The notes under the pieces were generated by a model. The model saw nothing but the letters and a program-made list of their open reading frames with translations. It was not told the DNA's origin and searched no databases. Positions 55,774 to 58,873 of a stretch of 64,000 nt of DNA are shown here, one piece after another. Origin of the DNA: Zestosphaera sp. GTDB lineage: Archaea; Thermoproteota; Thermoprotei_A; Sulfolobales; NBVN01. The stretch is from assembly GCA_038727705.1 (NCBI GenBank), contig JAVYVJ010000003.1, forward strand, positions 140,035-204,034, read 5' to 3'. Each line of letters begins with the position of its first letter. Position 1 is the stretch's first letter. Made by a program: the position numbers and the translations under genes.

Positions 55774-56544
55774 TTACACGTGATAGTCATGAATGTGTAT
55801 ATGCTTCTCATGAATCGATACGGCCGTGCCGTAGACCCTCCTAAGAATCTCCTCGTGGAGGACCTCGTCAGACCTCCCGAAAAACCACTCGCCATTACCG
55901 AGTAGCAACACATTATCGGTGTGAGGCAGTAGCAATGTCGGGTCATGGCTACTAATTATAATTGTCACGTTCTTTTCCTTAAATAGCTTGACAAGCGTTG
56001 AAGCCAACGAGACCTTACCGACAGGATCTACTGAGGAGAAGGGCTCATCTAGTACAAGGAGTTTGGGGTTATGGATTAACGCCCTAGCCACTAACACCCT
56101 CTGTCTCTGACCTCCAGACAGACTCCAGAAGCTCTTATGCTTTACGTCCGCATCCAAATCAACGAGCCTCAAAACCTCGTCAACCCTCTCCCTGGCAAGC
56201 CCATCTGAAAAGATTCTCGGCCACTTACTCCTGTAGAGGAGGTACGAGAACTCTATAAACTCCTCAACACTTACTGGATATGTGAAATACGACGGTGTGA
56301 AAATCTGGGGGACGTACCCTACATGCCTCCCAACAATGTTGGGTTTTGCTGTGACGTCCATCCCGTAAAGGTACACTTTACCGCTCAAGGGTCTTACAAG
56401 CCCCACAAGAGTCTTGAGTAGGGTAGTTTTGCCTGAACCGTTAGCCCCGATCACCTGGGTTAGCGTGCCTTCCTGGAACTCGACAGTAATTCCAGTGATT
56501 AGAGGCTCTGAATACCCTATGCTTAAGTAGTTGGTTCTCAGCAT
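55774..56544 (-). CDS. Zinc/manganese-type ABC transporter, ATP-binding subunit
   Basis: 256-aa ATPase of the metal (ZnuC/TroB) family. Walker A GANGSGKTT, Q-loop YVPQIF, signature LSGGQRQR, Walker B LLVLDEPFSSVD. The histidine-rich C-terminus (HEKHIHIHDYH) is suggestive of zinc handling. ATG 56544 has AGGAGAGG just before it. The frame is open a little further upstream, but that part overlaps the operator. It is divergent from its binding-protein and permease genes. Confidence 0.9.
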   Translation of the reverse strand: MLRTNYLSIGYSEPLITGITVEFQEGTLTQVIGANGSGKTTLLKTLVGLVRPLSGKVYLYGMDVTAKPNIVGRHVGYVPQIFTPSYFTYPVSVEEFIEFSYLLYRSKWPRIFSDGLARERVDEVLRLVDLDADVKHKSFWSLSGGQRQRVLVARALIHNPKLLVLDEPFSSVDPVGKVSLASTLVKLFKEKNVTIIISSHDPTLLLPHTDNVLLLGNGEWFFGRSDEVLHEEILRRVYGTAVSIHEKHIHIHDYHV

Positions 56545-56553
56545 TTCCTCTCC

Positions 56554-56596
56554 TGTGCACACTTCATTACAGGATTTATAAACTTTGTGCACACTT
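56554..56596. promoter_or_regulatory. Divergent promoter with twin TGTGCACACTT boxes
   Basis: Two direct copies of TGTGCACACTT (56554-56564 and 56586-56596; each starts with palindromic TGTGCACA) are spaced 32 bp, about three helical turns. They flank a symmetric TATA box TTTATAAA (56575-56582) that can serve both directions. Each box lies where transcription should start for one side. The likely binder is the RHH regulator at 58.5 kb or another metal sensor. Confidence 0.75.
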
Positions 56597-56606
56597 ACTC
56601 GTTGGG

Positions 56607-57611
56607 ATGGGGTATATGAAGAGAGTTGCGGGGTACGTGTTATTGTCCTGCACCGTCATCCTGCTATTTAGCCCTACTGTGGTAGCGGTTGATGGGTTGA
56701 CCATAGTTACTACATCTCCAGGTCTCGCAGACGACGTTAACCTGATTAAGTGTGAGAGCGACCGTGTGTACTCACTCCTTCCAGAGACTGCAGATCCGCA
56801 CGAGTACTCCCTGAAGCCCAGCGACTTAAGTATGCTGAGGCAGGCAGATCTACTCGTATCAACAGCCCACACCCACTTCGAACTGGAAATAAATGAACTG
56901 ATTTCACGCGGTGAGATCAACGCCACGCTTGTGGAGATACCCAGGATAGCTGGGATCAGGATATTGAAAAATCCGGCAACGTTAACAGATAATCTTCATA
57001 CCCCCACTTATGATCCTCAGAACTACGTTGCCTTCTTAAGAAATGTTACCGAGTTGATGAAGAGACTTAATCCGTCATGCTCCTCAGTGTATGAGACTAA
57101 CTATGAACTCCTCAGAAGTAGGGTCGAGTCTTTAATGAATAGCAAGCCTAACTCGATGAACATGCTAGTCGGGATAGCTACTGAACCCACTGTCCAGTAT
57201 GCTGTGGCGTGGCTCGGCATCAACGTGACTAAATTACTGATTCCAGAGGAGGGACTGAGTCCTACTCCTGCTACGGTAATAGAGATTGAAAACGCTGTCA
57301 GGAACCGTGAGGTTGATGTCTTGATAGTCGTTAAAGGCGGGGAATATTCAAGTTACCTGATTAATCTGGGCAGGAGTTATCATGTGCCAGTCATAGAGGT
57401 TCTACCGCCATATATGAATGGATCAACAATCGATAAACTGGTTCACGTGCTCGTTCAATATGCAGGGTTGCAAAACACAGAGACGCTGGGCGGGGTTTTT
57501 GACTTACCTAACACGACTAGCGTAACACATGCGGTTTCGGAACTGATTATACTCCTCCTGCTCATTGTTACAATAATATCCTACATAATATCAGACGGAG
57601 GTCGAGGTTGA
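56607..57611 (+). CDS. Zinc/manganese-type ABC transporter, substrate-binding protein
   Basis: 334-aa cluster A-I binding protein (ZnuA/TroA class). Signal helix at 5-27, then the domain with likely metal ligands in TADPHEYSLKPSD (His), TAHTHFE and the LHTPTYDP region. A second hydrophobic helix near the C-terminus (about 309-328) should anchor it in the membrane instead of a lipid. ATG 56607 sits about 28 bp after the TATA centre (leaderless); ATG 56616 is possible. It overlaps the permease by ATGA-type coupling. Confidence 0.88.
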   Translation: MGYMKRVAGYVLLSCTVILLFSPTVVAVDGLTIVTTSPGLADDVNLIKCESDRVYSLLPETADPHEYSLKPSDLSMLRQADLLVSTAHTHFELEINELISRGEINATLVEIPRIAGIRILKNPATLTDNLHTPTYDPQNYVAFLRNVTELMKRLNPSCSSVYETNYELLRSRVESLMNSKPNSMNMLVGIATEPTVQYAVAWLGINVTKLLIPEEGLSPTPATVIEIENAVRNREVDVLIVVKGGEYSSYLINLGRSYHVPVIEVLPPYMNGSTIDKLVHVLVQYAGLQNTETLGGVFDLPNTTSVTHAVSELIILLLLIVTIISYIISDGGRG

Positions 57612-58480
57612 TGCGCACGTTCAGATTAATCATACTCTATACAGCGGTCGCTACAATCCTATCCGTTCTCAACCCACTATTTAAGGTCGAGTTCAAGTGG
57701 AACGTGACTTTCACCGCGTTGGGACTTCTGTTCGGTTCCCTAAGCCCCCTAATAGCTACCAGGAGACTCTACTACCTCTCAGCAGCCGCCCCTCACGCCT
57801 CGCTTTTCTCTGTCGCGCTCTCCATGCTTATTGCTGGGGCTTTGGGGATCAGCGACTACTACGTTACAGCAATCTTCGTATCAACGCTACTTGTACTTGG
57901 CGTTGGTTATATGATTAGGTCAGGCCTTGATCCAGACGTAGCGACGTCCGTGTTCGTATCTAGCACGACAGCGTTAAGTGTTCTCCTAATGTACTATGTC
58001 TTGACTAAATATAGGTTAACCTCGATCAACGCCATAATGCTGGGTGATCCTCTGCTAATTCCGTACCACGAGGTTCTGATGTTAACGGTGATGTCGGTTT
58101 TGGTTCTAGTAGTGGTCCTCACAACCTTTAAAGAGAGCGTCTGTGCTGGCATAGACTCTGACCTGGTAAAGTTGAGCGGAGTTAAAGCAATCCTTTATGA
58201 TTTAATCCCCTACGCCTTAGTAGGACTGGTCGCCGTGACCTCGCTAAAGCTCGTGGGGTACGTATTGTCTCACGTGCTGGCATTGCTTCCTTCGCTGACA
58301 TCGATTAACGTAAGCAAGCAAGCACGTGAGTCTTTAATCCATAGCATAGGCCTCACCACCATAGCAACCCTAACCGGACTCCCCCTCTCGACATACTTTA
58401 ACGTATCGCCATCAGGCACTGTTGGGATTCTGTTAACGTTATTTTATTTGATGACACTAGTAAAGAGGAGGATGCCTTGA
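57608..58480 (+). CDS. Zinc/manganese-type ABC transporter, permease
   Basis: 290-aa membrane protein with about eight helices, ABC-3 family (ZnuB-like). Conserved segments are YYLSAAAPHASLFSVALS and TSINAIMLGDPLLIPYHE; a cytoplasmic loop near SVCAGIDSDLVKLSGVK corresponds to the ATPase contact. It lies between the binding protein and the regulator gene, with short or overlapping junctions. Confidence 0.87.
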   Translation: MMRTFRLIILYTAVATILSVLNPLFKVEFKWNVTFTALGLLFGSLSPLIATRRLYYLSAAAPHASLFSVALSMLIAGALGISDYYVTAIFVSTLLVLGVGYMIRSGLDPDVATSVFVSSTTALSVLLMYYVLTKYRLTSINAIMLGDPLLIPYHEVLMLTVMSVLVLVVVLTTFKESVCAGIDSDLVKLSGVKAILYDLIPYALVGLVAVTSLKLVGYVLSHVLALLPSLTSINVSKQARESLIHSIGLTTIATLTGLPLSTYFNVSPSGTVGILLTLFYLMTLVKRRMP

Positions 58481-58483
58481 ACT

Positions 58484-58873
58484 ATGACCAAAGAGAGGTT
58501 CGGTGTCTCAGTGCCTGCCGACCTTTCAAGGAAGGTTAAAGAACTCGCCAGCAGGAGGGGTGTTTCAAGATCTGAGCTAATAACGGAGATGATGAGGAGC
58601 TACATTACAGATTTGGAACATGAGAATCTCCCTCACTACTGCACAGGCGTTATGGTGATAGTTAAAGAGAAAGCGGAGATAAGTCTAGAGAGGGTATATG
58701 AAGCCTTTAAGGAGGTTATAATAGGGTATACCCACCAACACGTGGGGGGCATGTGTGTTAACGTAGTGTTCGTCTCGGGCTCCTCCGAAAGGATAGACGA
58801 CCTTTCTAAGAGTCTGAATATGTGTGGGTGTTTCATAAGGTATCTACCACTCCATGGCGGGAAGAGACGGTAG
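58484..58873 (+). CDS. NikR-like ribbon-helix-helix metalloregulator
   Basis: 129 aa: RHH DNA-binding domain (RFGVSVPADLSRKVKELASRRGVSRSELI, residues 5-33) and an ACT-like sensor domain with THQHVGGMCVNVVFVSG (83-99). His84, His86 and Cys91 match three NikR metal ligands, with one residue fewer in the His-Cys spacing; the first NikR ligand (E. coli His76) seems missing, and extra Cys (53, 114, 116) and His51 are present. It may therefore sense zinc or another metal. Encoded 3 bp after the permease, it probably represses the TGTGCACACTT promoters. Confidence 0.82.
   Translation: MTKERFGVSVPADLSRKVKELASRRGVSRSELITEMMRSYITDLEHENLPHYCTGVMVIVKEKAEISLERVYEAFKEVIIGYTHQHVGGMCVNVVFVSGSSERIDDLSKSLNMCGCFIRYLPLHGGKRR

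Follow-up and report, generated by a model that had tools for sequence, protein, structure and literature searches.

A pair of 8-bp TGTGCACA boxes, found across about a hundred archaea and tracking a NikR-like ribbon-helix-helix (RHH) protein, very probably acts as a metal-controlled off-switch for a zinc-type importer, as far as can be judged from the sequences compared here. In the window, that is, the whole 64-kb stretch of DNA analysed, the pair lies between the divergent genes of such an importer, and both the gene content and the TATA-box promoter look archaeal. The features of the locus are the following (strand given where one was assigned):

55774..56544, minus strand: ABC transporter ATPase, ZnuC-like (Pfam ABC_tran 2.4e-28; ATG at 56544)
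56547..56553, minus strand: purine-rich GGAGAGG, probable ribosome-binding site of the ATPase gene, as suggested by its sequence
56554..56561: putative operator box 1, ATPase side, TGTGCACA (exact in the window; aligned box in 25/25 relatives)
56575..56582: TATA box TTTATAAA, by its sequence, probably common to both directions
56586..56593: putative operator box 2, SBP side, TGTGCACA (exact in the window; at 32-35 bp from box 1 in all 25 relatives)
56607..57611, plus strand: ZnuA-type solute-binding protein (SBP; Pfam ZnuA 1.6e-19)
57608..58480, plus strand: ABC-3 family permease, ZnuB-like (Pfam ABC-3 5e-25)
58484..58873, plus strand: NikR-like RHH regulator of 129 aa, proposed binder of both boxes (Pfam RHH_1 6.2e-07; NikR_C 22.2 bits)

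The ZnuA-type SBP, the ABC-3 permease and the ABC ATPase are encoded together, as in ZnuABC-type (cluster A-I) importers. The start of the ATPase gene was set at the ATG at 56544, since the relatives align from that Met, and a GTG at 56592, the use of which would have placed the boxes inside the gene, was ruled out by the same alignment. The motif GGAGAGG adjoins box 1, ahead of this start.

The initial annotation had described a TATA box bracketed by two identical 11-bp boxes, and this was confirmed: TGTGCACACTT was present as two exact copies at 56554-56564 and 56586-56596, with a start-to-start distance of 32 bp and TTTATAAA at 56575-56582 between them, and no third copy was found in the 64-kb window. 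The symmetry attributed to the promoter was not borne out: the TATA box, measured from its centre, is 21 bp away from box 1 and 11 bp away from box 2, and TTTATAAA is separated from box 2 by a gap of 3 bp. In the relatives the median distances of the TATA-like element were 21 bp (ATPase-side box) and 12 bp (SBP-side box), the latter box being the nearer in 20 of the 23 relatives with a clear TATA, and therefore the element is consistently off-centre. Neither did 11 bp hold as the unit, since the alignment columns of 25 relatives defined a conserved unit of exactly 8 bp, TGTGCACA, and each column beyond it (the CTT) carried less than 0.5 bit.

In archaeal promoters the start site lies about 26 bp from the centre of the TATA box. 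With the start sites estimated from this general distance, box 1 would span roughly positions −2 to −9 relative to the ATPase start site and box 2 roughly −12 to −19 relative to that of the SBP gene, instead of each box covering one start site as had been proposed. The distance from the TATA centre to the ATG of the SBP gene is 28.5 bp, and the transcript of this gene is probably leaderless or nearly so. Taken as a whole, the earlier interpretation is partly supported, being right in outline and wrong in geometry.

Relatives were found by means of orthologues of the RHH protein, and their flanking DNA was compared. The cluster, with the ATPase gene on one side and the SBP, permease and RHH genes on the other, was kept in the relatives, with some rearranged versions. 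A TGTGCACA-like box pair was present in all 25 divergent intergenic regions examined, with start-to-start distances of 32-35 bp; conservation of the boxes had been set beforehand as a test that could refute the interpretation, and no refutation was obtained. The parts of the boxes facing the TATA element were near-invariant (TGCACA in the left box and TGTGCA in the right box), the inner hexamer of box 1 being invariant in 24-25 of the 25 relatives and its outer T-G variable. Because the inner halves are near-invariant and the outer bases variable, the pair can be regarded as one large dyad. It was also kept where the gene order differs (L059, L063 and L064), and cluster and pair were found together in a genome (G214/L143) that belongs to a different order of the class.

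When 214 genomes of the order were scanned without bias for two boxes with any intervening gap from 10 to 40 bp, 78 places were obtained, in 68 of which the boxes were 31-35 bp apart. When the fixed pattern TGTGCACA-N24-27-TGTGCACA was used, the pair was detected in 81 of the 214 genomes, versus 8 for the reversed pattern that served as control. In the genome of the window the boxes occur as a pair only once. A single TGTGCACA is not enriched there (17 copies in 1.59 Mb), as would be expected of twin repeats that surround a TATA box by chance and have no regulatory role; the probability of such a coincidence is negligible, being contradicted by the conservation at fixed spacing in 25 of 25 relatives and by the spacing peak of the unbiased scan. 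Judged by these comparisons, the pair is a genuine element with a biological meaning. A broader TGTGCACA regulon in the same genome was considered and rejected, as 14 of the remaining 15 copies are within ORFs. The sole other intergenic copy (G000:C2, L013:997-1012) is contained in a perfect 16-bp palindrome, CTTGTGTGCACACAAG, beside the sequence TTTAAAA.

The protein encoded at the end of the SBP operon showed an N-terminal RHH domain, with helices at residues 12-25 and 29-48 of its AlphaFold model (pLDDT 88), and a C-terminal ACT-like NikR_C fold, whose score of 22.2 bits compares with a cut-off of 22. NikR structures were the top PDB folds for this model in Foldseek (best E 5.6e-09), and the best score with the NCBIfam NikR model was 36.3 bits, far under the cut-off of 105, so the likeness to NikR is weak by sequence and clear by predicted fold. 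Residues R5-F6-G7 (the DNA-reading strand), S30, H51, C53, G55 and G99 were invariant in 30 orthologues, and H84, H86 and C91, found in 29 of the 30, are equivalent to NikR His87, His89 and Cys95. The square-planar nickel site of NikR consists of His76, His87, His89 and Cys95 (PMC7055735); no conserved His was found at the H76 position in any of the 30 orthologues (30/30), the feature present instead being the invariant H51-x-C53. In one genome (G057) the RHH orthologue (L043:1501-1863) was devoid of all three of H84, H86 and C91, and a slightly degenerate pair was still present (L072).

A canonical NikR with the QH motif was encoded in most of the relatives examined and in the window's own genome, and the canonical NikRs formed a clade apart from the RHH protein with support of 100/99. 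With a canonical NikR in the same genomes, a separate clade and the loss of H76, the RHH protein should therefore be considered a NikR-like paralogue and not NikR proper. The canonical NikR of the window's genome (G000:C3:50474; L146:1394-1822) is located outside the window and keeps a QHE motif. A single nikR/cbiM intergenic region (L133) was inspected for the canonical NikR operator of this order, and no dyad was seen in it.

The initial proposal of a compact metal-regulated operator serving the transporter genes on both sides, with the RHH protein encoded from 58484 as its candidate regulator, finds strong support in the genome comparisons, where the pair follows the cluster and the RHH orthologue. 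The latter was encoded in 80 of the 81 genomes with the pair (Fisher p 7e-29, uncorrected for kinship, which overstates the evidence because the genomes are related and the co-occurrence counts are not independent), and in the lone exception (G169) the contig ends inside the SBP gene, ahead of the RHH position. There were 36 genomes with the RHH orthologue and without the exact pair; a looser pattern recovered it, at plausible positions, in about six of these genomes, and the rest, apart from some 17, were inspected individually (13 genomes). Degenerate pairs at 32-35 bp were seen in 12 of the 13, and in the other one (G125) the sequence examined next to the RHH gene contained no pair. No pair was present at the eleven ZnuA-type loci that lack a close RHH orthologue. 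Where the RHH gene is unlinked (L089-L091; G007, G010 and G017) the pair remains at the transporter, and no autoregulatory site was found near the unlinked RHH genes of L056, L061 and L065.

Archaea have many metal sensors, and operon neighbourhood is by itself no proof of binding; it could be argued on these grounds that another sensor (e.g., of the DtxR/MntR, ArsR or MarR type) binds the boxes and that the RHH gene only travels with the transporter. We regard this as highly improbable, because the pair tracks the RHH orthologue both when the RHH gene is unlinked (L089-L091) and when the target transporter is a different one (L095, L096 and L115), and because it is missing from the ZnuA loci that lack the RHH protein.

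It appears likely that a NikR-derived, autoregulated tetramer, most likely responsive to zinc, grips both boxes of 56554-56593 and shuts the shared divergent promoter. Binding, bridging by a tetramer, metal-dependent repression, the choice of zinc and transcription in both directions from a single TATA box are all predicted features of this model. The regulator at 58484-58873, located at the end of the same operon, would have 56554-56593 as its operator. Given an RHH DNA-binding half and an ACT-like metal-binding half, it would be expected to assemble into a tetramer carrying two such DNA-binding domains, as NikR tetramers do (PMC7055735). When metal, most likely zinc, is sufficient, the loaded tetramer would place one DNA-binding domain on each TGTGCACA, and the boxes would face roughly the same side of the helix because 32-33 bp is close to three helical turns (some spacings, at 35 bp, deviate from an exact three turns). 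On the clamped promoter the loading of TBP, TFB and RNA polymerase would be blocked, and both directions would shut, since a gap of 3 bp separates box 2 from the TATA box and box 1 lies at the start site of the ATPase gene. Under metal shortage the protein would release the DNA, allowing expression of both the ATPase gene and the SBP-permease-regulator operon; the regulator, being encoded in the released operon, would therefore control itself. That the RHH protein might activate, or act in a metal-free form, instead of repressing when loaded with metal is quite improbable, considering that the positions of the boxes, one of them 3 bp away from the TATA element and the other at the start of the ATPase gene, are suited to blocking, and that its NikR relatives, in metal-loaded form, repress nickel-uptake genes (PMC7055735).

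Zinc was chosen as the most likely metal for this repressor in view of its ZnuABC-type target and of the nickel sensor that the genome already encodes. In the SBP, His85, His108, His151 and Glu112 are near-invariant and the third canonical site is not conserved; at this level of analysis the residues of the SBP do not settle the metal. The same operator and regulator might instead sense nickel or cobalt, the RHH protein being a divergent NikR and the ZnuA-type transporter an importer of that metal, which we consider rather unlikely. In its favour, three of the four nickel ligands of NikR are retained, and in genera g34/g35 a pair 31-32 bp apart precedes a NicO-like permease (L095:3117-3156, L096:2732-2771 and L115:1572-1610), so that the metal could be nickel or cobalt. 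This membrane protein carries a HGATPDEHTW motif and only sub-threshold similarity to NicO/LysE (NicO E 0.018-0.22), and possibly represents an undescribed metal permease family. Family f6 has TGTGCACA pairs with a spacing of 21-22 bp, near that of the classic NikR operator, just ahead of cbiM in G045, G151 and G152:

L109:1545-1574, L110:1484-1512 and L111:1488-1516: TGTGCACA pairs of f6 before cbiM

Also in G151 (L117:1070-1098), a TATGCACA/TGTGCACA pair 21 bp apart is located ahead of the gene for a NikA-like binding protein, and the pairs before cbiM and this gene likewise fit a nickel or cobalt signal. The RHH proteins found in f6 have in common the RFG(V/I) strand and have lost the metal ligands. 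The nickel/cobalt alternative is opposed by the missing equivalent of H76 and the H51-x-C53 invariant in its stead, by the separate clade of the canonical NikRs, by the main target being a ZnuA/ABC-3 transporter, and by the canonical NikR with H76 in the window's own genome and most relatives examined, which would make a second nickel sensor redundant.

In addition to the two- and three-turn arrangements, boxes 42 bp apart (about four turns) were found at or near the ATPase start in G084 (C20:6687-6735), G085 (C7:52924-52972) and G099 (L155:882 and 924), with a separate 32-bp pair besides them in G084 and G099. The series of two, three and four turns suggests one helical ruler, the two- and four-turn cases being few. 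With respect to the zinc-responsive repressor, we tentatively put forward, as possible though short of probable, a zinc switch formed by a separate NikR-derived family present in two orders of the class, in which H76 was lost, H51-x-C53 gained and the operator re-spaced from two to three turns, so that the tetramer straddles the TATA box and closes a two-way promoter. If this is true, the pairs of about two turns before cbiM in f6 and the four-turn pairs of G084, G085 and G099 would be other settings of the same ruler.

To our knowledge no zinc-uptake regulator is known for this group of archaea; none was found in the open-licence literature, and TGTGCACA was absent from the archaeal promoter papers found there. 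The regulator and operator proposed here provide a concrete prediction for about a hundred genomes, with TGTGCACA-N24-27-TGTGCACA as the predicted binding site, and a natural experiment on possible changes of metal and of DNA geometry in a metal sensor that has split from NikR.

Repressors of the CopG/MetJ type read short palindromic boxes, repeated at fixed helical spacing, by means of a beta-ribbon. The pair described here shares with them short palindromic boxes at a fixed helical spacing, which in this case is about three turns, whereas those repressors are devoid of a metal-binding ACT domain. As in the bacterial Zur/znuABC system (for which PMC6103462 is a review), a compact divergent promoter lies between transporter genes and repression would be expected under zinc-replete conditions; Zur is a Fur-family protein, in contrast to the RHH/NikR-type protein and the archaeal (TATA/TBP) promoter found here. 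The parallels with NikR lie in the RHH and ACT-like C-terminal domains, the NikR fold and the residues equivalent to H87, H89 and C95, and also in an operator that is a two-part dyad, which a single tetramer would contact through two DNA-binding domains. The protein differs from NikR in the lost H76, the invariant H51-x-C53 and a score of 36 bits against the equivalog cut-off of 105, and its target would be a ZnuABC-type transporter. The E. coli NikR operator is GTATGA-N16-TCATAC (PMC7055735), with 6-bp half sites 22 bp apart, whereas the operator proposed here has two full 8-bp palindromes 32-35 bp apart.
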